Below are positions 18,719 to 37,250 of a stretch of 38,614 bases of DNA, in pieces. The stretch comes from Coriobacteriales bacterium (lineage in GTDB: Bacteria; Actinomycetota; Coriobacteriia; Coriobacteriales; Atopobiaceae). A program made the position numbers and the translations under genes. Under the pieces are notes generated by a model. The model had not been told where the DNA came from and ran no database searches. It saw nothing but the letters and a program-made list of their open reading frames with translations. Each line of letters starts with the position of its first letter. The first letter of the stretch is position 1. The stretch is taken from the NCBI GenBank assembly GCA_030529665.1, contig JAUMWL010000007.1, positions 1 to 38,614 on the forward strand, read 5' to 3'.

Positions 18719-21700
18719 CTACTTCACCCGGATGGTATAGGTGACGGTCTTGGCGCCAGAGACGTAGGACTTGTTGCCAGCGGCGGTGGCGGTCACCACC
18801 ACGGCGTACTTGCCCTTCTTGGTCTTCTTTGGCACGGTGACCTTGCCGGTCTTGGCATCTACGGCAAACTTCTTTGCTATGGAGCCCGTGCTGGCATTAG
18901 AGAAGGACACGGCGCCCTTGGCCTTGGACACCCTCACGTTGGCTGCCGTGGCGACCGCCTTGGACTTTACCTTGCCGTAGGCGACCGAGATGGTCTTCTT
19001 CTTGGCCGAAGCGACGATTGGGTTGGCCTTGCCCACCTTTACCTTAACGACCTTGGTAGCCTTCTTCCAGTTCTTGGTGGCTGCCGCCGTAACGGTTACC
19101 TTGACGGTGCCCACCTTCTTGCCCTTGACCACGCCCTTGGCCGAGACGGTCGCCACCTTGGAGCTTGAGGACTTGTACGTGAGCTTGCCGCCTCCGCTGG
19201 CCTTGGCGCCAAGCTTGACGGTCTTGCCCAGGACGCACTCCATGTTGGCTGCCGCAATGGTCTGCGCGCCCTGCGTCACCACGACGGTGACCTTCTTGGT
19301 CGTCTCCTTGTAGTTACCCTTCGCAGCGGCCGTCAAGCTCACGGTGACGGTGCCCACGCCCACCGGCGTGACCACGCCGGACGCGCTCACCTTGGCCACC
19401 TTGGCATCGGAGGTCTTGTAGCCAATCGCCCCTCCGCCGGGGGTCTTGTTCGCGCCACCGAGCGCCACGGTCTTGCCCATGGCCACACTGTAGCTTGCCT
19501 TGGCCGTCACGATGGTCTGCGTGGCCGCCTCGATGGTAAAGGTCACGCTTTGGGAGCCGGCGTATCTGCCCACGCCCGTAACGGTAACCGTTGCCGTGCC
19601 AGCGTTCACGTTGTTGCGGAACCCGACCTCGTAGTCGGTGCCAAGCGCGAGCCCCACCCCGTCGTGCGTCACGCTGACAGCGGGCCTGTGTTCCTTGCCA
19701 TTATAGACAAATGAGGCTCCGCCAATGGTTATCTGACAGTCCGCGACGTCGATGACTTGCGGAACGTCCTCACCCGTCCCCACGCTCACGACAAGCGTCT
19801 GTGCTATGTCAGTACCGCCAAGCGACATGCGAAGCACGCCTTGGCCGGGCAGCCTTCCCTCAAGCTCGATCTGCGCGCGGCCGTTTTCGTCCGTAACGAC
19901 CTCGTCGCTCCGCAAGCCCACGATGCTTGGCGAGTAAGACACGACCGAGAGCGTCTGGTTCGCGCCGGCCCTCGCGGGCAGCACTTGGACGTCCACCACG
20001 GTACTTCCATGGTGTCTCACGCCGACTCCGACGGGGAGTTCTAGACCCATGGGCTGCTCGCTCACGGCATGGTCCCCACAATAGCTCGCCTCCATCGCGA
20101 TGCCGTTGTAGTTCCTCGCACCTTCGACTGCGACCGTCACGTTACCCGACATCTGGCTTTCCGCCCTGAACGAGAAGGACGATGCGTACCGCGCGGTCCC
20201 CTCGTAGTTGTCCTCGGCATTCAGCGGCTCGACGGTGCCGACCACAGCCTTTCCGCCACTCGTGACCTCGATGGTACCCGCCGCGCCAACGCTGTCGATC
20301 TGCATGTACTGGCTAAAGTCTATGCGCACGTGGTCGCCGTACGCCCTCACGCTGCTCACGGTAGGCGCACTCGAGGAGACTATGGCCGTGTTCACCTCCG
20401 TCTGGATGGGCGGCACCGGCAGGTAGCCCTCGTCGTCGCAGGCGACGTCGCTGTGGCTGTCCGCGTCCTGGTATCCGTCCTTGCTAAACCTCACCAGCCA
20501 CTGCCCCTCGGGCACGTCCCAGCCAAAGGTGCCGTCCACACCCGTGTGCTGCGGGTTCGCCTGGTCGTAGCTCTCCGCATCCCACAGGACCTCTGACTTC
20601 TGGTCCGCCGGCATGCCAAACTCGTCCACGGGGTAATCGTATTGGTAGATCTGTGCCTCCACGCCCTCCACGCGGTTGGAGGGGACGGCCTCGTACACGT
20701 AGCCGGACGGGTCGGCTATGGGATCGGCTGGTCGGTCTTCTCCCTCGTCATCGTCATCGTCGTCGCCATCATCGTCTAAACACCCGCAACCCTCTGATCG
20801 GCAGGTCTTGTCACATATGTCGCAATACAGCTTGCCGTTGACTTTATATCTATCTATTGCCTTGGGAATCAGCGGCGAATAATACTGCACGCATGCCTCG
20901 AATCTCGATTCGACTGTCGATATCCAAACCTGCAAGTCTTCCGCACACGGCTCTGGGACCTCCGCCCAGTTTATACTCATGAGCGGAAGGATAATTCGCA
21001 CCAGCTCGTCCATAAGCTGGTCTAGAACTGCTGTCGCATCCGCCCTCGCCATTATGGCATTGGTGTTTTGGCAACAATGGCAGCACACTGAGTACCAAAT
21101 AATGTTCTCTATTTGGATCGTATACCTGTTTCTTATGTCATCAAGCCTCTTTGAGTAATCAATTAGATAGTCTCTAATACCACGCGATTTTGCTCCGGAA
21201 GGATTCTGGTCATTGGATAAGGTCTCTTTTAGGACGGTCTTGCTTGCGGTATCAACAGTGTAGAAGACCGATGTGTCACCCTCTTTCACGAATGACAGGT
21301 ATATGGTGTCCTTGCCATCAGCCTTCTCTATGACATCATGGCTATCTGACCACTGCTCAAAGTCAAAGCTCTGGTAGTCCAGCCTTTCGACACGATAGCC
21401 GAACAAGCGCTCGTTCTCCAACATCAAGTCAAAGGACGTGGCATTTCCATCCTGCTCGACGTTCTCGACCTTTAATGCATCCCCAAGATGGTCTGCCATA
21501 TCTGCGCTAAGGTTTTTGGCAATCGCTGCCAACTCCTCCATCTCTTCACCATCAACAGTGTAATCAAAGATAGCTCCCGAGGCGTTGTCGCAGCTCACGG
21601 CAACCTTGCGCGGCACATCGCAGAAGTCCTGATAGTCAAACGTACCAATCCAGACCCCGCCCTCCTCGTCAAAGGCACAGGGAACGCGAGTCTTGTCGCC

Positions 21701-24355
21701 ATAGGAGTCGGTTGTGACAACGGCAACGTTGCTAACGGAGTCGCTCGCGGCGCCCGTGAACTCCACCACAAACGTGAAGGTTGGGTATGCAGGCCAGTAG
21801 TTGTAGGTCGGCACGGCAGACGACGGATTGAGGAAGTCAAAGACCGTCATGAACTCCACGGGGTCCAAGCTGGTGGCGGGGTGCGCCGTGTTTACCATCG
21901 TGACCTTGGACACCTCCACGCAGTTGCAGTTGTAGAAAAGCTCGGCCACGTCGGTCTGGATGCTAATCCCATACGTGTCGTTTGTAACCGTGGCATAGAC
22001 CTCGTGTTTGGAGAACTTTCGCGGAGAAACGAGGTCGAATTCCAAGCTCCACGAGCCAATCTTGTTGGAGGTGGTGCTTCCCACCAACGTGCCGTTGTCG
22101 TATACCGCAACCTCGCAACCCGCAATGGCCTTGCCAGAGGCCGTTACCTTTGTCCTGCCGGTCCGCTTTGGCATCTTGATGCTCGCAGCAGAGACCTCCA
22201 CAGACGCGCTGCCTATGGGCTGCGTCACGGCTCCCGGGTCGTAAGACAGATATGCGTAGATCGTCCTGGTTCCCGGGTCGGTGGGAATCACATAAAAGCG
22301 CACCGTGCCGCTCCTTTGGTCCACGGAAACGCTGACCGCACATCCGCCCGCATCATCGTCTACGACCGAACACGGCGAGGGCTTTCCGTCCACCGTAAGG
22401 CTCTGTGGTACAAACGTCATCCCCGCCGGAATTTGAAGGCGGACGGTCTCGCCCGTGCTTTGGTACTCGCTATCCATCTCGTACGTGGCTCGCACGACAA
22501 CGTATTGCCCTGCAACCACCTCGCTCTTGTTCGCCAACAGCATGGTCTTGTCTTTTACGGTGTGACTGAACTTCTCCTCGTCCAGATTGGGCACCTCCAC
22601 GCCGTCGACCACGCTAATGACGCCGTCTTCCACGGTTACAACACGAAGCGCGTAGTCCGCGTTTTCCACAAGGCCGACCTCCGCCAACTTGGACAGAGAC
22701 TCAACGCTTCTGAGCGCAGGGGTCTTCTTAATAAAGACGAGGGAGTACTCGCCCTTGGCAAGAGGGTCGCTGTCGTAGGAAGACTTTACGACCTTGTCCG
22801 TAACACGCTGCCCGTCCTTGTTAAAGACCATGACGGTGTTCTGCTCGTTGCCACCAATGTTGAGGACGCGAATCCTGCCGTTTTGCAACAACGTCCAGTC
22901 CGCTTCCGCACATTTTGTGCCATCCAGCGTGACCTCGATGTCCTGCGCCGTTATGCCGCCGCTCTGGTCCGTTACGGACAGGCGGATAACGTCGCCAGCA
23001 TCCGCCGTGCCCTCCCCCAAGATTATGTAGGGATACTGGACCACGAGGTCTGTAATCTCTTGGTCTCTGGTCTGGTTGTGGGCAGAAAACACGAGCCCGT
23101 TGGCATTTGTGAGCTGCACGGACGCGCCAGTCTCGCCCTGAGGAGCGGCCTCCTGCCTATACAAGCTAAGCGTTATCTTGTTCGACGGCATCTGTCGAAG
23201 CACGGCATCCACGCGGATCTCCTCGGCCGAGGACTCCATAGGCACGGAGTAATACCCGTCGTAGAACCCATCTGATGTCGCAACCAGCGTGGTCTTGGTC
23301 CTCGCCACATCGCTGAAACAGAACAAGCCGTCGGAGTCCGCCTCGGCAGTCAGCTCCTGCGTATATCGTCCGTTGAAGGTCTGCTTGAGCCTAATTGAAG
23401 CATTCGGCATCGCGCTCCCATCCAAGCGCCTCACCGTCCCCAAGACCGTGACTTTTGCCAAAGGGCTCAGGCTTATGGCAACAGACTGGCTTTTGTCGCC
23501 GGTTGTAAAGCCAACGCCATCTGGCTGGATGTATTCGTAGCTCAGATTCTCCCCAAGCGCAATCCTGCACGTATACGAAGTCTTGGCCGATGCGTTATAG
23601 AGCCTGTGCCCCGTTCCCAGCAGCGTGCCGTCCTGGGCATACCAGCTAACGGTATAGCCTTGCAAGATCACGTTGTCAGAAGGGTCGGTTACGCGAGCGG
23701 TAACGGTAAGAGCGCTGGAATCCCACTCACAGACAAAGCCAACAAGCTCGCCGTAGGAAGGGTCTTTTATCCATTGGTCGTTCCACTGGCCTTCGTGAGC
23801 CGACCCCATGGCAAGATAGTCCTCGCCAGTCTCGTCACCGGTATTGCTGGGTTCGCCCGAGCGCCAATTCGTGTACTCCCAAGGTTCTCCGGTTACCCAA
23901 ACCCAAGAGCCCTCCTCGTCTTCGTCCGTTCCCCCCAGCCAATAGAAGTCTCTCCCGGACTGTTGCTGAATCAAATCAAAGATAAAATCGTTTTCCTCTT
24001 GCGATTCAACCGTGGCAAGGTGACCACCCTGCGCCTCGCAGTACTCCTCCGCGTCATGCCAAGACATGTGCTCGTTTATGCACTGGTAAAGGTGATTGCC
24101 AAACGCAACGGATCCGTCATTGGAGTCTTCTTGTACGCGCAGGTCCACATCAGCAGACGCAACGTCTTCTTCGCCAAGCTGTATGACGGCATCGTCTTCT
24201 GCCGCAAACGCCACAGAATTGCTCATGAGCCCGGCGCAGACAAGCACCATTGCAAGCAGCGCGGCCTTCATCCATTGTGCGGACAAGGGCCTCCATGCCT
24301 GCCTGGCTTTTTTCTTGCTGCCATCCGATTTGGTGCGATGCGAGGTCTTCTTCAT
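18719..24355 (-). CDS. Very large secreted protein with C-type lectin domain and Ig-like repeats
   Basis: 1878 residues. A basic N-terminus and a signal peptide (KAALLAMVLVCAGLMSNSVAFA, cleavage near residue 52) send it outside. Residues about 85-215 form a C-type lectin domain (HLYQCINEHMSWHDAEEYCEAQGGHLATVES, WLGGTDEDEEGSWVW, CEWDSS). Carboxypeptidase-regulatory/Cna-like modules follow (CRIALGENLSYEYI, SIRLKQTF). Near 1170-1270 there is a cysteine-rich patch (CCHCCQNTN; YCDICDKTCRSEGCGC) and a run of aspartates (DDDGDDDDDDEGED). From about 1535 to the end there are tandem Ig-like/Big_2 domains rich in lysine and valine. No LPXTG sorting signal or end membrane segment is seen, so retention may be through the basic end. 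Likely an adhesin or surface-binding protein. The start ATG follows AAGGGCGG. Confidence 0.85.
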   Translation of the reverse strand: MKKTSHRTKSDGSKKKARQAWRPLSAQWMKAALLAMVLVCAGLMSNSVAFAAEDDAVIQLGEEDVASADVDLRVQEDSNDGSVAFGNHLYQCINEHMSWHDAEEYCEAQGGHLATVESQEENDFIFDLIQQQSGRDFYWLGGTDEDEEGSWVWVTGEPWEYTNWRSGEPSNTGDETGEDYLAMGSAHEGQWNDQWIKDPSYGELVGFVCEWDSSALTVTARVTDPSDNVILQGYTVSWYAQDGTLLGTGHRLYNASAKTSYTCRIALGENLSYEYIQPDGVGFTTGDKSQSVAISLSPLAKVTVLGTVRRLDGSAMPNASIRLKQTFNGRYTQELTAEADSDGLFCFSDVARTKTTLVATSDGFYDGYYSVPMESSAEEIRVDAVLRQMPSNKITLSLYRQEAAPQGETGASVQLTNANGLVFSAHNQTRDQEITDLVVQYPYIILGEGTADAGDVIRLSVTDQSGGITAQDIEVTLDGTKCAEADWTLLQNGRIRVLNIGGNEQNTVMVFNKDGQRVTDKVVKSSYDSDPLAKGEYSLVFIKKTPALRSVESLSKLAEVGLVENADYALRVVTVEDGVISVVDGVEVPNLDEEKFSHTVKDKTMLLANKSEVVAGQYVVVRATYEMDSEYQSTGETVRLQIPAGMTFVPQSLTVDGKPSPCSVVDDDAGGCAVSVSVDQRSGTVRFYVIPTDPGTRTIYAYLSYDPGAVTQPIGSASVEVSAASIKMPKRTGRTKVTASGKAIAGCEVAVYDNGTLVGSTTSNKIGSWSLEFDLVSPRKFSKHEVYATVTNDTYGISIQTDVAELFYNCNCVEVSKVTMVNTAHPATSLDPVEFMTVFDFLNPSSAVPTYNYWPAYPTFTFVVEFTGAASDSVSNVAVVTTDSYGDKTRVPCAFDEEGGVWIGTFDYQDFCDVPRKVAVSCDNASGAIFDYTVDGEEMEELAAIAKNLSADMADHLGDALKVENVEQDGNATSFDLMLENERLFGYRVERLDYQSFDFEQWSDSHDVIEKADGKDTIYLSFVKEGDTSVFYTVDTASKTVLKETLSNDQNPSGAKSRGIRDYLIDYSKRLDDIRNRYTIQIENIIWYSVCCHCCQNTNAIMARADATAVLDQLMDELVRIILPLMSINWAEVPEPCAEDLQVWISTVESRFEACVQYYSPLIPKAIDRYKVNGKLYCDICDKTCRSEGCGCLDDDGDDDDDDEGEDRPADPIADPSGYVYEAVPSNRVEGVEAQIYQYDYPVDEFGMPADQKSEVLWDAESYDQANPQHTGVDGTFGWDVPEGQWLVRFSKDGYQDADSHSDVACDDEGYLPVPPIQTEVNTAIVSSSAPTVSSVRAYGDHVRIDFSQYMQIDSVGAAGTIEVTSGGKAVVGTVEPLNAEDNYEGTARYASSFSFRAESQMSGNVTVAVEGARNYNGIAMEASYCGDHAVSEQPMGLELPVGVGVRHHGSTVVDVQVLPARAGANQTLSVVSYSPSIVGLRSDEVVTDENGRAQIELEGRLPGQGVLRMSLGGTDIAQTLVVSVGTGEDVPQVIDVADCQITIGGASFVYNGKEHRPAVSVTHDGVGLALGTDYEVGFRNNVNAGTATVTVTGVGRYAGSQSVTFTIEAATQTIVTAKASYSVAMGKTVALGGANKTPGGGAIGYKTSDAKVAKVSASGVVTPVGVGTVTVSLTAAAKGNYKETTKKVTVVVTQGAQTIAAANMECVLGKTVKLGAKASGGGKLTYKSSSSKVATVSAKGVVKGKKVGTVKVTVTAAATKNWKKATKVVKVKVGKANPIVASAKKKTISVAYGKVKSKAVATAANVRVSKAKGAVSFSNASTGSIAKKFAVDAKTGKVTVPKKTKKGKYAVVVTATAAGNKSYVSGAKTVTYTIRVK

Positions 24356-26127: not shown

Positions 26128-27192
26128 TCACGCCCGGTCTACGCGCAGCAGCACCGACCTCCAAGAGGCCTCGCTTGCGACGAGGTCGTCCGGTCCAAGC
26201 ACGCCTTCCCGCACAAGTCGCTCCATACCCGCAACGTGGCGCTGCCGCCGACGGTATGTCTCCGCGGGCAGGCGCTTGCATACTTCCCCATTAGCGCGCA
26301 GGCGAAAGCGCGTCTTTAGGAATGTGAACTCCTCGCTCGGATGCAGCACACGTGTCTTTTTGGGGTTGAGCGATAGTCCCAACGCAGCGCACCGCACCTC
26401 AAAACTGCGAGCGAAATCCCGTGCCTCGTCCCACTCTCCAAACAGCGCGTACCCGTCGTCCATGTAGCGGCCATAGCCCGCAACGCGCACCTTATCCTTT
26501 GCCCAGTGATCAACAGGGTTCGGATAAAGCACGGCCGCAACCTGCGATGTCTGGTTGCCTAGCCCCAATCCCCGAGGCGCTCCCTCTAGCGTGAGTCGCA
26601 ACAAGGCCAGAAGCCGTGCGTCAAAGACGATCTGACCAAAAATCTGCATTACCAACTCCACGCGAACGCTCGCAAAGTACTTGGAAAAGTCATAGAGTAA
26701 CAAGCCGCCGCCCGTCCCATGGCACCGCGCGTGCTCTCGCAAGTGCCGAACCAACCGCTTTAGCGCGAAGGTCGTACCGCGCCTGGGAATACATGCTGCG
26801 TTATCGAATATTATCACACGTCTGACGGCAGGCACGAGCACGCGGTCACAAAGCGTACGCTGCACCACGCGGTCCCGGTAGGCACAGGCAATGATGTCGC
26901 GCGGCTTGCTCCGCTCGCATATGGTAAAACGCTTGCCTGGCGTTAGATGGTACGTACCGTCCATGAGTTCGTTACGCAGCGTGGAGCAATTGAGGACAAG
27001 GTTGAGGTGGAACGACTGCACCTCCCGCTTCCAGCTCACGCCGTTCTTGCACAAGAGTGCTGAGGCAACAAGGTTGTCCAAGCAGAAGACATCCTCAAAG
27101 GAGCCGAGTCCCTCCGCAAAGCGTCGAGCACGCACGAGCGACCTGTGGGAAGGTATCGCGAACGATGGCAATGTGTCAATGTCGTTGCACAT
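26128..27192 (-). CDS. DGR-type reverse transcriptase
   Basis: 354 residues from the ATG at 27192. Reverse-transcriptase motifs are complete: LLLYDFSKYFAS (first catalytic Asp at about 168), GLGLGNQTSQVAAV at about 209-222, and GRYMDDGYAL (YMDD at 243-246). GNQTSQ in place of the retron/group-II type QG-x3-SP is the hallmark of DGR reverse transcriptases. It lacks maturase and endonuclease domains, again as in DGRs. It makes error-prone cDNA of the template repeat, misreading adenines, for transfer into target genes. It follows the Avd-like gene and the template repeat on the same strand. The start is uncertain: no clear Shine-Dalgarno sequence, and the frame extends upstream to 27279 (ATG at 27270). 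Confidence 0.92.
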   Translation of the reverse strand: MCNDIDTLPSFAIPSHRSLVRARRFAEGLGSFEDVFCLDNLVASALLCKNGVSWKREVQSFHLNLVLNCSTLRNELMDGTYHLTPGKRFTICERSKPRDIIACAYRDRVVQRTLCDRVLVPAVRRVIIFDNAACIPRRGTTFALKRLVRHLREHARCHGTGGGLLLYDFSKYFASVRVELVMQIFGQIVFDARLLALLRLTLEGAPRGLGLGNQTSQVAAVLYPNPVDHWAKDKVRVAGYGRYMDDGYALFGEWDEARDFARSFEVRCAALGLSLNPKKTRVLHPSEEFTFLKTRFRLRANGEVCKRLPAETYRRRQRHVAGMERLVREGVLGPDDLVASEASWRSVLLRVDRA

Positions 27193-27440
27193 GGTTAAGA
27201 CTTTTCGATCTGGCACGAAAGGTGAATTAAAGGGGCGGGCCGCGCACCTGTTCGTGTGAGGCTCCGGCATGGCACGCAAAACGCGCCGCCTGCACCCCGC
27301 CTTCCGCGCGGTCCCGCCGATTTCTCACGCGCGCTTGGGCCAGCGCGCTGGAAAGACGGCCCCTCCTTCTGCTTCTTCCTCCTGTCTTCGCCCCGAGGGG
27401 TTACTAAGCCTGCAAGTCGGACGCGGTCGCGCCCGTATAA

Positions 27441-27571
27441 GCGAATCCGGGGGACACGCCATTGTCGTTATTGGCGTTGTCGTTGTTCCAGTCGCCGTCG
27501 TGGTTGACGTTGTGGAACCTGTCCGAGTTGTTGGCATTCGGCGAGCGAAGCCACCACCACGAACTCGCCCC
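27441..27571 (-). repeat. DGR template repeat (TR)
   Basis: About 131 bp between the Avd-like gene and the reverse transcriptase gene, in transcription order Avd-TR-RT. Its minus strand would read SSWWWLRSPNANNSDRFHNV, then NHDGDWNNDNANNDN and GVSPGF. It is crowded with AAC/AAT codons, the classical signature of an adenine-mutagenised template. It matches the 3' ends of three DUF6273 genes (13300-13437, 28280-28412, 37411-37538). The right-hand edge of the similarity in minus orientation is GGCGTGTCCCCCGG (27447-27460), after which it diverges from the targets (GATTCGCT instead of CTTCTGC). That 14-base GC block is the probable homing-initiation sequence. The region is not itself a gene. Confidence 0.9.
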
Positions 27572-27680: not shown

Positions 27681-28193
27681 CTACCCAAGACCCTCAAGGT
27701 CAAAGAAGCTCATTTGTAGACCCGCCTCGGGCAGCACTTGCTCGCCTTTGAGATAGTCCTTCCATCGCCTCATGTCCGACCGCATCACCCCCTTTAGCAG
27801 CTCGAGTACCTTGTCTAGGCAGTGTATCAAGTCGCTGAACCTCGCTTGTGTGATAGCAGGCTTGAGGGCACCCGTGTCGCCAACGGGCTTTACCGGCGCG
27901 AGCTTGTACACCTCGTCGATAAGGCTGGAAAGCGTCTGTGCGTGGCAGTACGCCTGCTGCAGGTGCATGCGGCGAAGTTGCGCATCTACCGCACAGCTCA
28001 CGTAAATCGAGTTGGCGCTCTTGGCGTGGTGCAGCGCCTGCTCCGCATGGCCCACCATGCGCTCGGAGAGGTAGAACGTCCAGCGCTTGGGTAGCCGCAG
28101 AGCGAGCTCGAACGTTTGGTGAAAAAGAAGCTGGGCCTGCCACACGTACTCAACGCTGGACTGACTGCGCTTGGACTTAGGCACGCCGGACAT
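27681..28193 (-). CDS. avd: Avd-like four-helix-bundle accessory protein of the DGR
   Basis: 170 residues. Four amphipathic helices are visible: YVWQAQLLFHQTFELALRLP; SERMVGHAEQALHHAKSANSIYV; LRRMHLQQAYCHAQTLSSLIDEVY; and FSDLIHCLDKVLELLKGVMRSDMRRWKDYL. This pattern, with basic surfaces, is that of the Avd family, which binds the template RNA and the reverse transcriptase. The start at 28193 is supported by AAGGAGG 6 bases upstream. Position between the kinase target's end hairpin and the template repeat is the canonical DGR order. Similar four-helix bundles occur as rRNA intervening-sequence proteins, but the context decides here. Confidence 0.85.
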   Translation of the reverse strand: MSGVPKSKRSQSSVEYVWQAQLLFHQTFELALRLPKRWTFYLSERMVGHAEQALHHAKSANSIYVSCAVDAQLRRMHLQQAYCHAQTLSSLIDEVYKLAPVKPVGDTGALKPAITQARFSDLIHCLDKVLELLKGVMRSDMRRWKDYLKGEQVLPEAGLQMSFFDLEGLG

Positions 28194-28230: not shown

Positions 28231-28254
28231 GCGCTTGCCACACGGGGCAAGCGC
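28231..28254. repeat. DGR hairpin downstream of the kinase variable repeat
   Basis: GCGCTTGCC (28231-28239) pairs with GGCAAGCGC (28246-28254) around a 6-base loop. It lies about 20 bases past the stop of the kinase gene on the minus strand. Its stem sequence and loop size are shared with 37363-37388. A short GC-rich hairpin just beyond the initiation sequence of the target is a known DGR homing element. Confidence 0.8.
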
Positions 28255-28273: not shown

Positions 28274-30205
28274 CTAGAAGCAGAAGCCGGGGGAAACGCC
28301 ATCATCGTAGTCGGCGTCCCAGATGCTCCAAACCCCGACGGAGAAGACGATGTGGAACGAGTCCGAGGAGTAGGCGTACGGAGAGCGAAGCCACCACCAC
28401 GAATCCGCCCCGCGATTATCCTTCTTGATACAGGAGGAGTAGCTTTTGGTAGACACCCCCTTGTCGGTGTAGAGCTGGTACTGAGTGCCTTCGGCATCGT
28501 AGGTTGCGGACGACCACGGCCTATTCTTCTTTTGAGACGATAGTTTACCGTACACCTCGGACACGGAGAGGAGCCATAGCCTGTCGATGGTCTCACTCAC
28601 CACAGAAGTGTCATTATTCGTTTCGATTTCTCCAACGTTGTTCGTTCGCTTCTTTGCTGGCTCTGCGAGATGCCGAATATCGGCTGGCATCAACGCAAGA
28701 AACCCAGAGTTGAGCCATTTGCGCATCTCGCTTTCCTCCCAACCGCCCTTGTTAGTACGTTCTGGGTTCATTGCATGCCCTATTGGCACGTTCGCGAACT
28801 CGAAGGAGATGCCTGCCTTGCCACCCATCGCGCGCTGGTCGTGACGGAAGCCAAGGATGCGGACGCTCGTCTTTGTTCCGTCTGCAAGCGCAAGGGGTTT
28901 CTCGTCGCCCCTCAACTTGCCATCCTCGTCCACAAGGTGGTAACGCCCTGCAATCCGAAGTCCCTCGGCGTCGTCTTTGGCGGCCGCAATGGCCCGCGCA
29001 ATCCTCTTTAGCTCCACCCACGAATAGTCGGCAACTCCCGAGCGTACAACAATGTTATGTGCGGGCGATACCGGCTTAGGCATCTTACTCACGCTTGCGG
29101 ATTTACCCTTGTCATCGGACTCGCCGGCACGCACATCACGCCGAGCCTCTTGAGTCCTGGCCCGCCTTTTTGCGACGTCGTCCTCCAACTCCGGCGTTAC
29201 AGAATCGGGCACTAGGATGGGGTTGGGAGCAGGGACGGGAACTGGTTCGCCCAACAGGTTTTCCAAATCACCTATAACGGCGCGCAACTTTGGCCGATAG
29301 TTTGGGTTGTAGTTGGTACATGCGCTCACGATTACCGCAAGCTGAGCCTCAAAGTCATCGTGGGGCCTTCCCGCCACGTCCATTCGCTCCACCATGTTGA
29401 GGGGACGAATCTTAGCCTTGGCGATATTCTCCAAATCGTCCCTGCTGAGCCACGCTTTGGTCTTTAGGTCCACGATCTCTGCCGGCCAATACTCCCCCGA
29501 AACCATGGTGACGATGAGCGACCCAAGGCTCCAGACATCGCACAGCTCACGGTTGCGCTCCTTTATGTGACGCCCGCCAAAGACCTCTGGGGCACCATAC
29601 GGAACGGTCGACAGCCTTGGATTGTCCAGGGTAATCGTACTCCTGGTCGTGGGCGTACCCTGCCCAAAGTCAATGACGTAGAGCTCAAGCTCACCCTTGA
29701 GCAAGCCTGCCAAAGAGTGGTTGGTTATCATTACGTTGCCTGGCGACAGGTCGCGCTGCGCAACATGCACCCCAGCAATGCCTTGGAGCGCCCGCGCTAT
29801 GCCCAGAGCGATTCGCGCCGCGTCCCTAGAACCCAGATAGGGGTTTTTCGCGTCACCCGTAAGGACCCCGTCTTCGATGATTGCCGACAAGGTCTTTCCG
29901 TCAATGTATTGCATCACAAAGGCGGGATGCACGCCGGTGGAGTCCCTAAACGTTCCATAGCCATAGGCGCGCGGCACACTTGGGCACCCCTGTTCGTTGA
30001 GGCTCGAAAGCAGCTCATACTCCTTCCGCGCCATATTGTCGCTACGCGTGTTAAAGAAGCTCTTTATGGCGTACTGCCCTTGCTCCCCAGCCCTATACAG
30101 CGCGGCAAAGTGTCCGGCGGCGGTCTGGTGGTATCCCGAAAGATTCAGGGGACCGGTCACTCCGCCCGCATACTCAGATGCCACGAACCCAAATTGCGCG
30201 TTCAT
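28274..30205 (-). CDS. Serine/threonine kinase fused to a DGR-diversified DUF6273 domain
   Basis: 643 residues. The kinase domain (about 20-300) has the ATP-lysine motif YAIKSF (K48), a catalytic loop QRDLSPGNVM (D152, N157; Gln replaces the usual His of HRD) and the metal motif IDFGQG (D179). STVPYGAPEVFGG and CDVWSLGSLI follow. After a proline-rich and charged linker (about 320-390) comes DUF6273: DYSWVELKRIARAIAAA, VRILGFRHDQRAMGG, WLLSVSEVYGKLSS, ending SWWWLRSP...GVSPGFCF. No transmembrane segment is visible, unlike actinobacterial PknA/B kinases, so the variable domain should face the cytosol. The start at 30205 overlaps the region just after the PP2C stop. It presumably phosphorylates FHA-bound partners encoded upstream; the substrate is inferred only. 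Confidence 0.9.
   Translation of the reverse strand: MNAQFGFVASEYAGGVTGPLNLSGYHQTAAGHFAALYRAGEQGQYAIKSFFNTRSDNMARKEYELLSSLNEQGCPSVPRAYGYGTFRDSTGVHPAFVMQYIDGKTLSAIIEDGVLTGDAKNPYLGSRDAARIALGIARALQGIAGVHVAQRDLSPGNVMITNHSLAGLLKGELELYVIDFGQGTPTTRSTITLDNPRLSTVPYGAPEVFGGRHIKERNRELCDVWSLGSLIVTMVSGEYWPAEIVDLKTKAWLSRDDLENIAKAKIRPLNMVERMDVAGRPHDDFEAQLAVIVSACTNYNPNYRPKLRAVIGDLENLLGEPVPVPAPNPILVPDSVTPELEDDVAKRRARTQEARRDVRAGESDDKGKSASVSKMPKPVSPAHNIVVRSGVADYSWVELKRIARAIAAAKDDAEGLRIAGRYHLVDEDGKLRGDEKPLALADGTKTSVRILGFRHDQRAMGGKAGISFEFANVPIGHAMNPERTNKGGWEESEMRKWLNSGFLALMPADIRHLAEPAKKRTNNVGEIETNNDTSVVSETIDRLWLLSVSEVYGKLSSQKKNRPWSSATYDAEGTQYQLYTDKGVSTKSYSSCIKKDNRGADSWWWLRSPYAYSSDSFHIVFSVGVWSIWDADYDDGVSPGFCF
28280..28412 (-). 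repeat. DGR variable repeat of the kinase-DUF6273 gene
   Basis: The last about 44 codons of the gene. By eye, aligning codon by codon with the template, I count about 30 base differences, of which about 19 lie at template adenines. Most of the rest are at third codon positions. Unchanged blocks are SWWWLRSP, SDSFH (partly) and GVSPGF. The initiation block is CCGGGGGAAACGCC at 28287-28300 on the plus strand. Confidence 0.85.
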
Positions 30206-30208
30206 GTG

Positions 30209-30988
30209 TCACACCTGTTCCCCAACCTCACCGGTACCGATTGCACCGGATACTTCAGGCGTTACGGAGAGCGTTGCAGAGGCGCTCTGCGCCGCCCTCC
30301 CGCCATCCTCGCCTCGTATGCATTCCTCCACCACGATGCAGATACACGTACTGTTGTCCATCCCCACGCTTGCGGCCTTGTTGCACAGGGCGTCAGCAAT
30401 GAGCGGCGCGTTTTTTCCCTCGACCAATATGCGCATGAACTCGCCCTCGTCAACATACTCCCATATGCCGTCGGTGCAAAGGACAAAACGATCCCCCGCC
30501 CTCACATCGACTCGCGTCCTGTCCGGGTTGATTATGCCATATCCCACGGCCTTGGAGAGCGCATTGCCGCCTCCAGCAACTCGCCCCGGCACCGTAACAG
30601 GACGTAGCTCACCATTGCGCAAGCGGTATGCCATTGTGTCACCAGCCCACACCACCTCAAGGGATGCGTCCCCATATTCCGCCAAAAGAAGCGTCGCGCC
30701 AGCGCGCTTGTCCAAATATGATGACATAACGCTCGTCATATCGTTTGCAAACCCAAACGACGAATCAATGCTCGACCCCCCGTCGAAGGCACGGATGGCA
30801 GCCTCGCATGCGACCTTGCTCATAATGTCGCCATAGGGCGCCCCTCCAATGCCATCGCTTATGGCATAGAAGTCGTACGTATAGCTTATGGCACAGTAGT
30901 CGTCGTTCTTTTGGCGCGGACCTTTTTGCGACGCCATTCCCACCTTGAGCAGCAACCGATTGCCTCCGTTTTCATTCTTGTTGCACAT
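30209..30988 (-). CDS. PP2C-type serine/threonine phosphatase
   Basis: 259 residues. The PPM/PP2C metal-binding motifs are in order: RQKNDDYC, FYAISDGIGG, FVLCTDGIWEYV and GMDNSTCIC. It should remove phosphates from the neighbouring kinase and its substrates, as PstP does in other actinobacteria. It differs from PstP in having no transmembrane tail, matching the soluble kinase. The start ATG at 30988 is one base after the stop of the FHA gene (TAA-c-ATG), with GAGGTGG upstream. The stop lies 3 bases before the kinase start. Tight coupling of phosphatase and kinase is therefore likely. Confidence 0.9.
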   Translation of the reverse strand: MCNKNENGGNRLLLKVGMASQKGPRQKNDDYCAISYTYDFYAISDGIGGAPYGDIMSKVACEAAIRAFDGGSSIDSSFGFANDMTSVMSSYLDKRAGATLLLAEYGDASLEVVWAGDTMAYRLRNGELRPVTVPGRVAGGGNALSKAVGYGIINPDRTRVDVRAGDRFVLCTDGIWEYVDEGEFMRILVEGKNAPLIADALCNKAASVGMDNSTCICIVVEECIRGEDGGRAAQSASATLSVTPEVSGAIGTGEVGEQV

Positions 30989-30989
30989 G

Positions 30990-31859
30990 TTAGGCCACCT
31001 CGCAATGGAACACTACGGCAGGGTCCTTCGAGGGTCCCACAAAGATCTTGTCATCGTCAACAAGGGCGGTAGAGTCCTCGACCTCAACCCACTTGCCATC
31101 ACGCCGTATGCGCATGGCGTTGCGTCCGCAATTGGTAAGGTACCATTGGCCTCCCTTGTGCGTAAACCTTCCCTGCACCTGAGAACAGACCCCCACGCTT
31201 GGTGCATAGGGCAGCTCTATGGTGGGCAGCTGACGCGCGGAGTCGCGGCGGATTCCCATTGTGCTCCCGTCCAAGACGTCAAACCTCGGTCCGTTGGGTA
31301 CGGCGATGGACGCGGACGCAACTGCGTCTGCCACAAACACGGGAGTTTCGCTCGTGATGCGCGAGGTGGAAGCCTGAACGTCATCGTCCCAACTGAACGG
31401 CGGGGTCGTGCTCCATGGAGAGGCGTGGTCTCCCAAATCGGTTTGACTGGCGTCATCAAACCTCAAGGTCTCGACATCAATGATGGGTTCTGCTGCAAAC
31501 GATGCGTAGATGCGCACGTCGCCACGACGGATGCCCTCCTCCGTCATGAGGGTAACAACGGGAGGCTCCATCTGGGCATGGATCTCTTCCACGAACTTAC
31601 AAAGTGCATGCGTTAGGCGCTCCTCGTTCTGCCGAACCCTAAAGCCGTAGTATTCGTCCCAATCGGCCTCGCTCACGCATACTTCAAACGAGTTTGGCAG
31701 CTCGGTGAGATCTTCCCATGCCTTTGCGTTCGCCATCGCCTCTTTGGTAAGCGCATTGACAAGCTCGGACGGATCAAGCGCGCTGCGCTGCGAACCCACA
31801 TCGAACATCCTTCGCATTGCTAGCATCATGCTGCGAATGAACTCCATGATCTTCTCCAT
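30990..31859 (-). CDS. FhaA-like protein with DUF3662-type N-terminus and C-terminal FHA-like domain
   Basis: 289 residues. The first part (MEKIMEFIRSMMLAMRRMFDV, then ELVNALTKEAMANAKAWEDL ... NSFEVCVSEADWDEYYGFR) resembles the DUF3662 end of mycobacterial FhaA. The last about 90 residues are an FHA-like sandwich (VGVCSQVQGRFTHKGGQWYL, NAMRIRRDGKWVEVED) but lack the full G-R-x-S/N-G set. It is probably a phosphothreonine reader or scaffold connecting kinase to wall enzyme. The start at 31859 is chosen because GAGGGG lies 9 bases upstream; the ATG at 31868 has no spacing. Followed by PP2C with one base between. Confidence 0.75.
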   Translation of the reverse strand: MEKIMEFIRSMMLAMRRMFDVGSQRSALDPSELVNALTKEAMANAKAWEDLTELPNSFEVCVSEADWDEYYGFRVRQNEERLTHALCKFVEEIHAQMEPPVVTLMTEEGIRRGDVRIYASFAAEPIIDVETLRFDDASQTDLGDHASPWSTTPPFSWDDDVQASTSRITSETPVFVADAVASASIAVPNGPRFDVLDGSTMGIRRDSARQLPTIELPYAPSVGVCSQVQGRFTHKGGQWYLTNCGRNAMRIRRDGKWVEVEDSTALVDDDKIFVGPSKDPAVVFHCEVA

Positions 31860-31878
31860 TTCTTGCATCCCCTCTTTG

Positions 31879-32514
31879 CTAGTTGATTTGTATGAACGTT
31901 GTGGGCGTCAACCCAATGCGGCTTCCGGGACCAATGGGCACGCTTCGGTTGTGCACGCGAGCGCCATTTACCATGGAGCCGTTCTTGCTGCGATCCAGGT
32001 ACGTCATCGTGCCATCTCGGCGCACTATGATCTGGCCATGCCGACGGCTGACACCCGCAACGCTCGCGACTATGTCATTTGAGGGGTCGCGTCCAATGCT
32101 CACGCCTTTTACGAGCGGAATCTCGACCCCGTTCCAAAGCTGCACGGCGCTTGAGCGCGCCGTACTGTCGCGCACCTCCGCTAGCGCCACATGCGCGGAC
32201 GCAATCTTCACCTCCTTCGCACGTTCGTTGAGGAATTCGCGCTCGATGCGCAGTTTGCCAACGCGCACCCTGCTGCTCACCATGCAAACGACCACAAGGC
32301 CGTCTGTTGGTAGCCCCTCGCGCTCGTATGCCGCCAGCACGGAGTCGAAGCACCAGTCCGCAATCTGGCCAAGGCCGGTTTCGGCGGCATCCTGCGACGA
32401 CACGCAAGCCTCCCAGTAGTTGGGATTACGCTGCTTGGCCTTGTCCATCTTTACGCGAGGCCAAAGGCCGGCCTCCACGTCACCCCTCGCGAGGCGTCCG
32501 TGTCCCATTCTCAT
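31879..32514 (-). CDS. FHA-domain protein (FhaB-like position)
   Basis: 211 residues from the ATG at 32514 (GGGGGA 5 bases upstream); other ATGs at 32508 and 32526, and a longer frame to 32565, are possible. The N-terminal half (NPNYWEACVSSQDAAETGLGQIAD ... IEREFLNERAKEVKIASAHVAL) is not recognised. The C-terminal 80 residues are a canonical FHA domain: VSIGRDPSNDIV, VSRRHGQIIV, DRSKNGSMVNG. This binds phosphothreonine peptides. It sits between the FtsW-transpeptidase fusion and the FhaA-like gene, as FHA genes do in the actinobacterial rodA-pbpA-pknAB clusters. Confidence 0.85.
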   Translation of the reverse strand: MRMGHGRLARGDVEAGLWPRVKMDKAKQRNPNYWEACVSSQDAAETGLGQIADWCFDSVLAAYEREGLPTDGLVVVCMVSSRVRVGKLRIEREFLNERAKEVKIASAHVALAEVRDSTARSSAVQLWNGVEIPLVKGVSIGRDPSNDIVASVAGVSRRHGQIIVRRDGTMTYLDRSKNGSMVNGARVHNRSVPIGPGSRIGLTPTTFIQIN

Positions 32515-32581
32515 TTGGTCCCCCATTCTTGTTGCCCAGGTCCTCTTGTTGCCACTACCATACAACTGGGTCTCAACCAGA

Positions 32582-32594
32582 AATTGCGTTTACC
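32582..32594 (-). promoter_or_regulatory. Shared motif AATTGCGTTTACC, copy 2
   Basis: Identical 13-base copy of 25713-25725, in the short gap between the transpeptidase stop and the FHA gene start. May be an internal promoter or regulator site for the FHA-PP2C-kinase half of the cluster. Confidence 0.4.
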
Positions 32595-32603
32595 CATGCA
32601 TGC

Positions 32604-35300
32604 CTAACGCTTTGCCGCCGCACTTAGGACAGCAAGCGCACGCGGCTTTGCCAGCGTTGAACCGCGGTCGTCCTTCGTGCCTTCCACGCAGGTTGTCACC
32701 GCCACGTTGCAGTCTGAGCAGATGTACCAGCACAGGCATCCGTCCCCAGACTGCGCGGTTCCTGTTTTTCCCGCAACCTCCACGCCATCCCAATCGACTC
32801 CGGACGCCGCGACCATGGCATCCCATACCTCATGAGCCGTTTGGGGGCTCATGGCCTGGGTCGGCTCGGAGCGCGGCGACACGATTGGTCCGGACTCCAC
32901 CAAATACGGCTGGCGCATAACACCATCATCTGCAATGGTGGCCATAACAGAGCACATCTGCAGCACCGTCGCCTCGGGTCCGGTTGTCTTCTCCCCGCTT
33001 TTCATGGCCAACCCAACCGCAGCCCATGCCTGTGTGTATTTATCGGTGCATGGACCATAGGACGATGTCTTGGCGTTGAGCGCCGGATCTGCCGCATCGT
33101 GGTCAAATCCAAGTGCGCTAGCCATCTTTGCAATGGGCTCCTCCCCCATCTTTAGGGCAAGCTTGGCGAATGCGGTGTTGGCCGACACGCAAAGTGCCTC
33201 CTTAAGCGTAATGTCACCGTACCGTGCATCCCGATCGTTCGTGACTTTCTGATTTTCGCCCAGCGTAAAGGGGTCTCCTGTATACACGCTGTTAAGGGTT
33301 GCCTCCTTTGACTCAAGGGCGGCGGCGAGCGTGACCGTCTTGAAGGTGGAGCCGGGAGCATAGAGGGAGCCGGTAGCTCGGTTTACGTATCGACCGTCTT
33401 CCGAGGCGTCACCACCGGTAGCTGGGTCATATGTGGGACTCGAAGCCTCTGCCAGCACCGCCCTCGTCTTTACGTCCAAAACAACCGTTGCGCCAGTAAC
33501 ACCCTGCAGCTGACTCTCCGCCTCCACTTGGATGGACGAGTCGAGCGTAAGCGTCGTTTGCGGCATCTTCTGTGGCAAGGCCAGCGCGTTGAGGATAGGA
33601 TTGTTGCTCCGCGCGTCGGTATTGCACAGCAAGCGCTCGATGCCATCCGATGAAAGGCCCAGGACGTGGACCGCCATCGTTCCCTGGGGGTATTCGCGAC
33701 CAACAGCACCAGATCCTTCCAGAGACCCACCCCTGGCTAGCTCCACCCCGTCACTCGTGACTACCTCGCTCGCGCTATACGCGGCATTGGTGTTCCCACA
33801 AATACGTATGGCAGGCTGCAGCATAACGACGTTAAAGGCACATGCTGCCATCGCGACAACGATAGAGACCGTAAGAAGACGAGTCCCCGCAGTAGGTCCG
33901 CCATACGAGTCTCCATAGTCGGCATGGGCGGCACAGGCGGCCATGAGGCCGAGCATGAGTGAGCAACCCAGCAGGCTCGACCCGCCCGTAGATACAAAGG
34001 GAAGCGTAATGCCGGTAAGCGGAATAACGCCGGTAACCCCACCGATGATCACGAACGATTGCCAGCACAGAAGGCAGCAACTGCCCAACACCATGTTCCG
34101 CTCGAAGGAACCCCAAGATAACGTGCGGACTATACGCAGCGACTCAACCGCAATACCCAGAATTGCCAGAATTACAGACATCCCACCCAGCACGCCCAGC
34201 TCTTCCACAATCGCCGCAAAGACGTAGTCGTTGTAGCACTCTGGCAAAGCACCCAGTTTAGGTCCAAAGTGCAATCCTGTGCCCACGAGGCCGCCGTTCG
34301 CCATCGTCTCTCGTGCCTTGGCAGCCTGATACCCAACTCCAGACAAGTCGAAGTCGTGGTCGAGCCATACGGTAAAGCGAGCCGCAATGTGGGGCTTCGC
34401 ATGAATCGCCACGGCCACTAAGAGTGCGATGGCAGCCACCAGCAACAAGAAATAAAGCACTCCGGCCCTTCCCGAGCAGAGCGAGAGCATAGCCACAAAC
34501 AGTGCAAAGATAACGATTCCCGAACCAAGATCGTTGGTCTTAACCGCCAAGCCAAGCGAAAGTAGAAGCGCAATTACGATGGGTACCAAACCGCGCAGGC
34601 TAAGCGTACGCACACGCCGTGCGTTCGCAGCCAGATAACCGGCAAGGGCCAAGGCAAGCGTCACCTTAGCCAGCTCCTTTGTTTGTAGGCCTAAGCTATT
34701 CGATTCCCCCGTGCCGTGCTCGCCAGAGGGACCTGCGCCGCCTTCATCCGAATCCTGCGCGTTGGAGCTGCCAATGGAAATGCTCATCTGCGCACCGTTC
34801 TCGGTTTTACCCAATCCTGGCACCAAGGGGAGAGCGCACATGGCTATGCTAAAGACCATAAGGACAACAAACGTCGCGGCTAGCAGGTCGAGGAACCGCC
34901 GGGCCACGAAAGCCACCATTACACACAGCGCCATGCTCACCAGCAGGATAGTCACGTGCTTGGTCGCGCCTTCGGGGATTGTGTCAAACGAAATCGCTGC
35001 ACCCATGCCGCCAAGAAGCGCAACGGGCAGCAGCAGGTTTCGTACCTCTCCTCGCATCGTGGCAAACACAAGATCGCATGCTGCCAGCACCACAAAGGCA
35101 AGCAGCAACCAGACTGCCTGCGATGCGTCTGGCGCAACGATTGCCCCACTCACAAAGAGGCATGCAAGCGATGCAAGCACGAGTATGTGGTTCCGCATCC
35201 CATCGGAATCACGATGCAGAACGAGGCGTGCCATCCCCAAAATCGAGAAGAACAAAAACGCGACGCGAAGCACGAAGGCAATGGTATGGGAAACAAACAT
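32604..35300 (-). CDS. FtsW/RodA glycosyltransferase fused to a penicillin-binding transpeptidase
   Basis: 898 residues. The first about 500 form a multi-pass SEDS (FtsW/RodA) protein: DLGSGIVIFALFVAMLSL, the loop GLVGTGLHFGPKLGALPE, ND-Y-VFAAIVEELG, and GVIPLTGITLPFVSTGGSSLL are all SEDS hallmarks. A linker and another membrane segment near 510-530 lead to a class-B-like transpeptidase: STFK (S651), SAN (706-708) and KTGTAQ (845-850). The two parts are normally separate genes (rodA and pbpA) in actinobacteria; a single fused chain ties polymerase to cross-linker. A Gly/Ser-rich insert with acidic residues lies in an extracellular loop around 180-205. Start ATG with AAAGGA 8 bases upstream. 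Localised at the cell membrane, it should build a specific portion of the wall. Confidence 0.92.
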   Translation of the reverse strand: MFVSHTIAFVLRVAFLFFSILGMARLVLHRDSDGMRNHILVLASLACLFVSGAIVAPDASQAVWLLLAFVVLAACDLVFATMRGEVRNLLLPVALLGGMGAAISFDTIPEGATKHVTILLVSMALCVMVAFVARRFLDLLAATFVVLMVFSIAMCALPLVPGLGKTENGAQMSISIGSSNAQDSDEGGAGPSGEHGTGESNSLGLQTKELAKVTLALALAGYLAANARRVRTLSLRGLVPIVIALLLSLGLAVKTNDLGSGIVIFALFVAMLSLCSGRAGVLYFLLLVAAIALLVAVAIHAKPHIAARFTVWLDHDFDLSGVGYQAAKARETMANGGLVGTGLHFGPKLGALPECYNDYVFAAIVEELGVLGGMSVILAILGIAVESLRIVRTLSWGSFERNMVLGSCCLLCWQSFVIIGGVTGVIPLTGITLPFVSTGGSSLLGCSLMLGLMAACAAHADYGDSYGGPTAGTRLLTVSIVVAMAACAFNVVMLQPAIRICGNTNAAYSASEVVTSDGVELARGGSLEGSGAVGREYPQGTMAVHVLGLSSDGIERLLCNTDARSNNPILNALALPQKMPQTTLTLDSSIQVEAESQLQGVTGATVVLDVKTRAVLAEASSPTYDPATGGDASEDGRYVNRATGSLYAPGSTFKTVTLAAALESKEATLNSVYTGDPFTLGENQKVTNDRDARYGDITLKEALCVSANTAFAKLALKMGEEPIAKMASALGFDHDAADPALNAKTSSYGPCTDKYTQAWAAVGLAMKSGEKTTGPEATVLQMCSVMATIADDGVMRQPYLVESGPIVSPRSEPTQAMSPQTAHEVWDAMVAASGVDWDGVEVAGKTGTAQSGDGCLCWYICSDCNVAVTTCVEGTKDDRGSTLAKPRALAVLSAAAKR

Positions 35301-35360
35301 AACGGCAATCCTTTCCCTCGGTTCCCTCTACTGAGTAGTGTGATGAAACCGAAGGAAAAA

Positions 35361-35372
35361 AATTGCGTTTAC
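35361..35372 (-). promoter_or_regulatory. Shared motif AATTGCGTTTAC, copy 3
   Basis: Twelve-base copy, about 60 bases upstream of the FtsW-transpeptidase start, in the 100-base gap after the multi-FHA gene. The minus-strand reading is GTAAACGCAATT followed by an A/T-rich tract. Confidence 0.4.
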
Positions 35373-35402
35373 ACCATTGGTTTGAGAGGCGTCAACTCGC
35401 CG

Positions 35403-37250
35403 TTACTCCGCTAGGGGAAGAAAGATGTAGCAGGGCGACCCGACAAACGACAGCTTGCTTCCGTAGGGAAGAGTTGTGGAGCTATTCTTCATTTCGAGAA
35501 CGACATCCGATCCATCCGGCTTAAGCACACGAGTGTCGTTTTTCCCCAGCTGGGTGTACATCCACACACCATCCTCAAAGTCGAACCTCCCATGAATCAT
35601 GCTTGCGTATTCGAAGCCCTTGATATTTGGCAGCTCGATTGTTGGCGTCTCTCCATCGCGTGGCCGCACGAGACCAATCGTCACACCCGTTGACTCTACG
35701 ATCAAAGGAGGGTATGGACAGTCGAAGTCCGGTTTGAGCAAAGCGCTAACTCTGCGGAACAAGTACCTAAACCTCACAACGGCACCATCGGTCGACACAC
35801 ATGGCTTGCCATTCTCGACCACCCCGGCTAGAAGAATCTCGTCGTTGTTTGAAAGTATGACATCCCCTGGAGCCCTCACCTTGAGCGTGTATGCGCCATC
35901 CGCTCCGATCACTACAATGTCGTTCTTGTTTGATGAGTTTCTGAGGGATACCCTGCCGTCATCTTCCCCGGGATCGATTACCGCATGCCTTCCCGAAACA
36001 TTCGACCCAAGATTGCTCGGCACCTCGAATCCACCGCTTCTACCAATGGGAAAAGAGAAGTACCCTTCATCGTCTTTGATGTCGGCAAAACTGTAGTTTT
36101 GCCAATCGGAATCTGCACGCACATTTTTTAGCGAAAAGCCATAGATTACGCGGCTTGTCCCCGATTCTCCGCCGTCAAAGATGGGAGTAGTTCCTGCAAC
36201 AGGCTCTTCGTCCTCAAGCACATGCACAAACGATGATGAAACATCGAATCGAAGTATGGCGCCACGCTTGCAGTCTGGCAGCCATTTGCCATTTTTGCTC
36301 ACCGGCGCGAGCCAAATCTCGTCTCCATTTCCCAATGGCATCACATTGCCACGTTCCCTGGAGTAGATGGGTTCTTTGCCCACACGCCATACAGCTGTTC
36401 CGTTGGATTCCGACAAGTTGACGAGTTCCCACGAATACGCGCCACCGGCGTATGACGGGCGAATTACTGCATGCTCATACGAAACGCGTGACTCCACTCC
36501 CTCGACCACGATGGGTGCATAAGCGGCGTCGGTGTTGTACCCACGCCCAACAAGCACCTCAACGCCACGGCCAAAGGCGCATACGTTCGTATCCGCAAAC
36601 TCGTCTCCACGCAAGACAAGCTGGCACAGCTCGAACCCATCGACGCGCTCGCCCAAAAGCTCCTCGCCAAACACCGCAGTCGGTGCGAATCTATTTATCG
36701 CAGGCACCGCTTCCGGTCCAAGCAGCGTGGCAAGCAACAATCGACGGTAGATGGTGAGAGACTCCGCTTCATCCGTGCCAGCGGATGAGGAGATGTAGCG
36801 TTCCAAGTCTGTTGATTCCAGCTGCGTTACGCCGTAATACCGATTGTAAAGGCCATACATCCTCTTGCAAAAAACGCAACCGGGCGTAAGGGGATGCTTG
36901 AGCAGAACGTCGGTCAGGACTGATCCTCTTGCCTTGTCAATCGCTTCGGACAGCATTTGCACGAGTTGATCGTCACCCCTCTCAACTACGAGCTTGTGTC
37001 CGCTACGTCCGATTCTTTGCAAGAGAGACGAGCTGCACTCATCCATTCCGTTCTCAAGGATTTGGCAAATGGCGCCTTTGTGCGCCCTGTGATACGGAAT
37101 CTTCCCTCGTAGGAACCGAGTCGTTTGGTAGTCATCGGTTGGACCCATAATCTCTTTGGCAAGGGCATGCGTGCCTAATGCCTCATTACGAGCGTCGAGA
37201 TACTCATCCAGGCTGTTTACGAACTCTCCGAACAAAGTGTAGTCGTTCAT
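35403..37250 (-). CDS. Large protein with several FHA-like domains
   Basis: 615 residues from the ATG at 37250 (no strong ribosome site; the frame extends to 37301). The first about 240 residues are helical and include CVFCKRMYGLYNRYYGV; their fold is unrecognised. The rest contains three FHA-like modules. One is around SYEHAVIRPSYAGGAYSWEL with NGTAVW. A second is FPIGRSGGFEVPSNLGSNVSGRHAVIDPG with NSSNKNDIVV. A third is GLVRPRDGETPTIELPN, SMIHGRFDFEDGVWMY and NDTRVLKPDG. The second retains the GR...SGRH core; the other two are more degenerate. No transmembrane segment. A multi-FHA scaffold is expected to gather phosphorylated partners of the operon's kinase. Confidence 0.7.
   Translation of the reverse strand: MNDYTLFGEFVNSLDEYLDARNEALGTHALAKEIMGPTDDYQTTRFLRGKIPYHRAHKGAICQILENGMDECSSSLLQRIGRSGHKLVVERGDDQLVQMLSEAIDKARGSVLTDVLLKHPLTPGCVFCKRMYGLYNRYYGVTQLESTDLERYISSSAGTDEAESLTIYRRLLLATLLGPEAVPAINRFAPTAVFGEELLGERVDGFELCQLVLRGDEFADTNVCAFGRGVEVLVGRGYNTDAAYAPIVVEGVESRVSYEHAVIRPSYAGGAYSWELVNLSESNGTAVWRVGKEPIYSRERGNVMPLGNGDEIWLAPVSKNGKWLPDCKRGAILRFDVSSSFVHVLEDEEPVAGTTPIFDGGESGTSRVIYGFSLKNVRADSDWQNYSFADIKDDEGYFSFPIGRSGGFEVPSNLGSNVSGRHAVIDPGEDDGRVSLRNSSNKNDIVVIGADGAYTLKVRAPGDVILSNNDEILLAGVVENGKPCVSTDGAVVRFRYLFRRVSALLKPDFDCPYPPLIVESTGVTIGLVRPRDGETPTIELPNIKGFEYASMIHGRFDFEDGVWMYTQLGKNDTRVLKPDGSDVVLEMKNSSTTLPYGSKLSFVGSPCYIFLPLAE

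Follow-up and report, generated by a model that had tools for sequence, protein, structure and literature searches.

The window analysed here, 38,614 nucleotides long, corresponds to contig C278 in the draft genome G000 (3.18 Mb in 315 contigs, 88% complete). Its minus strand carries, in this order, a gene for a kinase fused to DUF6273 (30205-28274), an Avd gene (28193-27681), the repeat in question, which is non-coding (27571-27441), and the gene for a reverse transcriptase (RT; 27279-26128). The sequence-only reading had proposed that the repeat is a template repeat (TR) serving three variable repeats (VRs), and this is borne out by the anatomy of a diversity-generating retroelement (DGR) and by a strong adenine bias; we regard it as very nearly certain that 27441-27571 is the template repeat, TR1, of a chromosomal DGR with the canonical order target-Avd-TR-RT.

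The RT gene (RT1; 26128-27279, minus strand) encodes an RVT_1 domain with YMDD and the motif LGNQTSQ. When a profile built from two rows was searched against solved structures, the best match was 8ub7_A (4.6e-20), whose entry title is 'Diversity-generating retroelement (DGR) ribonucleoprotein reverse transcriptase', and the next match stood at 8e-4. By its motifs and this match, RT1 can be assigned to the DGR clade. The longest open reading frame for Avd begins at 28250, yet the ATG at 28193, which follows GGAGG, is the likelier start (27681-28193, minus strand). A profile search against PDB sequences gave chance matches only for Avd, so a fold comparison was needed: the predicted model (pLDDT 87) is a four-helix bundle that matches BPP-1 Avd (4dwl_C; Z 13.3, rmsd 1.9 over 110 aligned residues), a score that helical bundles often reach and to which the position of the gene adds weight. 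The model also matches the 8ub DGR complexes, and homologues of the protein adjoin an RT in about 30 related loci; on the predicted fold, we take the gene to encode the accessory protein of the element.

TR1 itself (27436-27571, minus strand; ASSWWWLRSPNANNSDRFHNVNHDGDWNNDNANNDNGVSPG) consists of a core at 27447-27570 followed by the IMH*. All 31 core adenines fall at codon position 1 or 2 of the VR frame and none at position 3; by calculation, adenine changes cannot reach a stop codon, and ~20 variable codons give about 10^18 protein variants. The IMH common to the VRs is CGGCTTCTGCTTCTAG and its template counterpart, the IMH*, is CGGATTCGCTTATA. Just past the core the template reads CGGATTC-GCTTATA as against CGGCTTCTGCTTCTA in the VRs, and since the A>C changes and the extra T occur in all VRs, they represent the IMH*/IMH difference and not mutagenesis. 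Between TR1 and RT1 lies a spacer (27285-27435, minus strand) that starts with the motif GTAA-stem-loop-YGAA, as it does behind a second template in this genome (TR2, below) and in related cassettes. In an alignment made by eye (automatic alignment put some stems wrongly), the sequences of the spacer stems vary between cassettes and their complementarity is kept. No Rfam family scored above its threshold in 27285-27435, and the spacer may represent a new RNA family. We also note that its layout persists across distant cassettes, with GTAA-hairpin-YGAA, AAGG(A/G)G and, in most relatives, CGGACGCTnCTTGCAT.

Three genes in the window, all on the minus strand, end in a DUF6273 domain with a VR. 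Target 1 (28274-30205) is a Hanks-type Ser/Thr kinase (kinase residues 31-310, C-terminal DUF6273 384-643) whose translation retains the Lys, RDLSPGN and DFG motifs; no transmembrane (TM) segment was seen in it, and its variable domain is therefore probably cytoplasmic. Its VR with the IMH spans 28275-28412 and is followed, 22 nt past the start of the stop codon, by an inverted repeat of the cruciform-element type (28231-28254; GCGCTTGCC-CCGTGT-GGCAAGCGC). Target 2 (37407-38588, the N-terminus perhaps running off the contig end) has a VR at 37408-37538 and an inverted repeat at 37363-37388 (AGCGCTTGCC-CTGCGT-GGCAAGCGCT); the protein has one membrane segment, and its variable domain is probably outside the cell. 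Target 3 (13296-14376) is a decayed TIR-DUF6273 gene that appears frameshifted, with a TIR-like end in the frame 14376-13705, for which no Pfam match was found, a DUF6273 frame at 14243-13296 and a VR at about 13299-13438. A model of DUF6273 (pLDDT 96) matches the IgA peptidase 9qa6 in its DUF6273-like part with Z 15.2, and C-type lectins with moderate scores of Z 4.6-6.4, among them a variable protein of the Treponema DGR (2y3c, Z 5.6), which suggests that DUF6273 serves as a C-type-lectin-like scaffold for the VR.

Between targets 2 and 1, five genes run on the same strand (30209-37301, minus) with gaps of 1-105 nt: an FHA protein (37301-35403), a SEDS-PBP fusion of FtsW and transpeptidase type (35300-32604), a second FHA protein (32565-31879), FhaA_N (31868-30990) and a PP2C phosphatase (30988-30209). 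The PBP retains STFK, SAN and KTGT in its translation. Each of the 16 members of the genus (16/16), including this genome (contig C306), has a separate fusion of FtsW-PBP type with about 1000 residues, so that the window fusion is an extra copy; the row is not the single housekeeping core operon of pknB type (fhaA-fhaB-pstP-rodA-pbpA-pknB). The best relatives of the kinase in sister species also adjoin related FHA and PP2C genes, and the one relative examined (L138) has a leucine-rich repeat end and no DUF6273 match. Nor does the DGR look phage-borne, its neighbours being FHA, PP2C, kinase and SEDS-PBP genes rather than phage structural genes; similarity searches of phage and plasmid records, with viral contigs covered by pattern scans, gave no DNA match or near copy. 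Elsewhere in the window are a raiA RNA (12369-12630, minus strand, 159 bits) and a secreted-looking protein of 1878 residues (18719-24355), which starts with a canonical C-type lectin domain, also has Ig-like repeats and, as far as we can see, is not linked to the DGR.

Adenine-biased differences between TR1 and the variable repeats

TR1 and the VRs were compared on the minus (coding) strand over a 124-nt core up to the IMH, in which adenines make up 31 of 124 positions (25%). The sequence-only reading had estimated that about 19 of 30 differences in the kinase VR and about 13 of 23 in the membrane-protein VR (target 2) fall at template adenines. Pairwise alignment gave almost the same values: the kinase VR has 31 differences, 19 of them at adenines (A 19/31, non-A 12/93; odds ratio 10.7, p=4.1e-7), and the membrane-protein VR has 24 substitutions, 13 of them at adenines (A 13/29, non-A 11/89; p=4.2e-4), plus two 3-nt deletions that remove two codons. 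With the third VR (41 substitutions; A 20/31, non-A 21/93; p=3.2e-5), the excess at adenine sites is seen in all three (3/3).

The remaining differences had been described as mostly C/T changes and put down to drift since the last homing event. The first description fails for the kinase VR, where the non-adenine differences to TR1 comprise three each of G>T and C>T, two each of T>C and C>G, and one each of G>A and G>C, and the second fails there too, as set out below. For the other two VRs drift is the best reading of the sequence: the membrane-protein VR seems to be TR1-like (7/10 of the discriminating non-adenine sites introduced below) but old, and the third VR, with 21 non-adenine differences and apparent TR1-like ancestry, sits in a gene that looks frameshifted and has lost its downstream hairpin. 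A search for VRs that differ from their template at adenines only, which had been suggested for sister strains, found none within the genus but did find them in the relatives Adlercreutzia muris and A. mucosicola, where VRs compared with their own templates show 26/37 and 22/37 adenine changes and non-adenine changes at 0/95.

A second template and the origin of the kinase variable repeat

A family search of the genome recovered 12 DUF6273 places, one of which is a second non-coding template, TR2, on contig C148; a third template was not found by family or DNA searches. The C148 cassette has the order Avd2-TR2-RT2, IMH and hairpin signals like those of the TR1 cassette, and two TIR-DUF6273 targets (C148_a and C148_b), downstream of which we also observed a TPP riboswitch (L013 333-444, minus strand). 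Avd2 is 79% identical to Avd1 and RT2 is 78% identical to RT1; 57% of fourfold sites differ between the RTs, and the cassettes therefore separated long ago. The same 57% rules out that TR1 merely changed after writing the kinase VR. We also considered whether C148 is a contaminant and rejected this, since its tetranucleotide profile (0.939) lies inside the range of window slices (0.902-0.968) and the kinase VR itself indicates a TR2-like template in the cell.

The best template for the kinase VR is TR2 on C148, not the adjacent TR1. With TR2 as the reference, differences in this VR fall at 17/30 adenines and at only 1/94 other positions, and 11 of its 12 non-adenine differences to TR1 disappear; C148_b gives 21/30 and 0/94. 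Ten non-adenine sites discriminate the two templates, and both the kinase VR and C148_b have TR2's letter at 10/10, as compared with TR1:TR2 counts of 7:2 for target 2, 7:1 for target 3 and 4:5 for C148_a. As a benchmark, the same alignment rule was applied to 28 related cassettes, taken from named genomes and from viral contigs, and the 26 that yielded a TR/VR pair show 0-3 non-adenine differences each between a VR and its own TR (16/2298 in total, from local alignments with ends possibly trimmed and with several viral contigs being near-duplicates). Under the benchmark rate, 12/93 non-adenine differences would have p=3e-12, whereas 1/94 is ordinary. Given the near-absence of non-adenine differences to TR2, the ten discriminating sites and the behaviour of related cassettes, the kinase VR was likely last written in trans, from TR2 rather than from its neighbour TR1, and most of its supposed drift is then the signature of another template. 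Against TR1 the window VRs are adenine-enriched only; the clean TR/VR pairs are both with TR2 (C148_b 0/94, kinase 1/94). No clean TR1 product was found among the assembled VRs, and TR1 may be inactive or may have its clients among the VRs that are missing from the assembly.

The most serious alternative keeps the DGR but has the kinase VR written in cis, with a TR2 signal that arose from chimeric assembly: a short repeat would have linked the body of the kinase gene to a VR, or to a downstream flank, of some other target, for instance the target that lies upstream of Avd2. On either side of the kinase VR interior (28302-28378) are exact repeats (36 and 40 nt) that also occur in C148_b, and misassembly there could mimic the TR2 signal. 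C148 and C72 break off directly past post-VR hairpins (L013 7296-7240; L169 2162) that have 27 nt in common, and C55 stops inside a TIR-DUF6273 gene (L139 10213); at least two target VRs are therefore unassembled. Short-read lengths, and the larger k-mers that common assemblers use, normally exceed 36-40 nt, however; similar repeats are traversed elsewhere by both C278 and C148, and the kinase VR is unlike every other assembled VR. We consider a chimera rather unlikely.

Transfer by gene conversion from the VR of another target, instead of directly from TR2, is less probable again. The VRs do share ends of 36-40 nt that are able to recombine, and a sister genome (G003) holds a relic that looks like a TR/VR recombinant, but the sole assembled donor of TR2 type, C148_b, is mutated at seven template adenines that are intact in the kinase VR; the latter is therefore no copy of C148_b, which cannot have been the donor, although one of the unassembled VRs may have been. 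That TR1 wrote the kinase VR and that all non-adenine differences arose by later drift in VR or TR is very improbable: TR1 adjoins the kinase and the adenine bias against it is significant, but 11 of the 12 non-adenine differences match TR2, the 10/10 discriminating sites contradict the idea unless the assembly is wrong, the related cassettes stay within 0-3 such differences, and the two cassettes diverged long ago. Finally, paralogous DUF6273 copies are widespread and give 12 matches in this genome, but the proposal that there is no DGR at all, and that the repeats are ends of paralogous genes plus one pseudogene copy, decayed and with an AT/GC mutational bias, is already refuted by the 21-29 adenine changes with zero non-adenine changes in C148_b and relatives, by the adjoining RT and Avd, and by the IMH and hairpins.

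The post-VR inverted repeats of the kinase, target 2 and C148_b have stems of 9-10 bases and loops of 6, the stems differing between sites and remaining complementary; in shuffled flanks, a stem of 8 or more arose in 0.3% of trials. The hairpin is lost or reduced behind target 3 and C148_a, which have 21 non-adenine differences to TR1 and 17 to TR2, respectively, and it is kept behind the kinase (1 to TR2) and C148_b (0 to TR2). A link between hairpin loss and old VRs is only suggestive, because target 2 has kept its hairpin and nevertheless has 11 non-adenine differences.

Related systems and a shared repertoire of variable targets

No orthologous DGR RT was found in the sister species of the genus. 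One of them, G003, has no RT but a remnant of Avd fused to a sequence of VR type with an IMH (L132 1598-2055), a relic likely produced by recombination between template and variable repeat; another, G008, has two DUF6273 targets without RT or TR; and in G014 a more distant RT/DUF6273 pair occurs twice (C104/C105, L134), with equal scores on opposite strands. The relatives point tentatively to Coriobacteriia as the class to which G000 belongs. The nearest named relative is the DGR of A. muris and A. mucosicola (L019, L020; RT 48% and Avd 46-47% identical), which likewise has a DUF6273 target with a TM segment and clean adenine-only VRs but differs in that one cassette was seen, the target is of zinc-ribbon/TM type and there is no kinase row. 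The target genes of these two species (about 8400-8760) also diverge strongly upstream of the VR, which template adenines do not explain.

The element resembles the BPP-1 DGR (mtd-avd-TR-brt) in the order target-Avd-TR-RT, adenine-only mutagenesis, IMH/IMH*, post-VR hairpin, structured spacer, Avd fold and RT homology (PMC3240598; PMC12875486). It differs in being chromosomal, in its signalling targets, DUF6273 scaffold and two paralogous cassettes, and in its hairpin loop, which is 6 nt here (CYGYGT) and 4 nt in BPP-1 (GRNA). DUF6273 DGR targets in Faecalibacterium phages and tentaclins have been published (PMC10743442; PMC11792537), as has their relatedness to C-type lectins (PMC10743442); the C-type-lectin-like DUF6273 scaffold with the VR inside the domain is common to both settings (PMC10743442; PMC11792537), but those targets are phage receptor-binding or decoration proteins whereas here they are kinase, TIR and TM fusions on a chromosome. 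Cyanobacterial Ser/Thr-kinase-CLec targets also place a C-terminal CLec VR on a Hanks-type kinase and include remote paralogous targets, with another CLec family than here, where the setting is an FHA/PP2C/SEDS-PBP row with Avd (PMC7517822). Thiohalocapsa PB-PSB1 has several DGRs per genome, TIR and kinase contexts, and trans-written targets: DGR 4/5 are written from DGR 2, and DGR 1 matches the DGR 3 template (PMC10907252). Its trans-written loci are incomplete or remote, whereas the kinase described here adjoins its own complete cassette (PMC10907252). Among the papers searched for DUF6273 and, more loosely, for Coriobacteriia with DGRs, none was found to describe this kinase arrangement. 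Kinase targets, DUF6273 targets and trans homing were thus known already; the novelty lies in a target that adjoins a complete cassette and bears the signature of a diverged second template, and in the FHA/PP2C/SEDS-PBP setting.

We propose that TR RNA, held via the spacer by RT-Avd, would be reverse-transcribed with errors opposite adenines, and that the cDNA would replace the 3' end (the VR) of DUF6273 genes that have an IMH and a post-VR hairpin. Both cassettes would recognise the same IMH and hairpin signals and hence share clients, so that targets could be served by either. The targets (kinase, TM protein and TIR proteins) would be sensors in which a ligand-facing loop is randomised for changing ligands. 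The anatomy of the DGR, its adenine bias and the best template for each VR are read from the sequence itself; in this model we infer current activity, the identity of the writing RT and the sensor role. The picture as a whole, namely a DGR with TR1, a second diverged cassette, shared clients, a kinase VR written from TR2 and sensor targets, has in our estimate a probability of about 0.83. More tentatively, and at somewhat less than even odds, two anciently diverged DGR cassettes may share homing signals to the extent that a kinase heading its own cassette was rewritten from the other, giving a shared repertoire of variable sensors (kinase, TM and TIR) tied to a duplicated FHA/PP2C/SEDS-PBP wall-synthesis operon, with recognition that is possibly innate-immunity-like or directed at the cell wall.

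The ten non-adenine differences between TR1 and TR2 act as natural barcodes from which the DGR that last wrote a VR can be read from sequence alone, making cis preference versus sharing between co-resident DGRs directly testable. DGR-variable domains are carried here by a kinase and a membrane protein whose genes belong to a row that also encodes FHA proteins, a phosphatase and a cell-wall synthase. This arrangement suggests that hypervariable recognition can provide the input to a phosphorylation circuit with a bearing on peptidoglycan synthesis.
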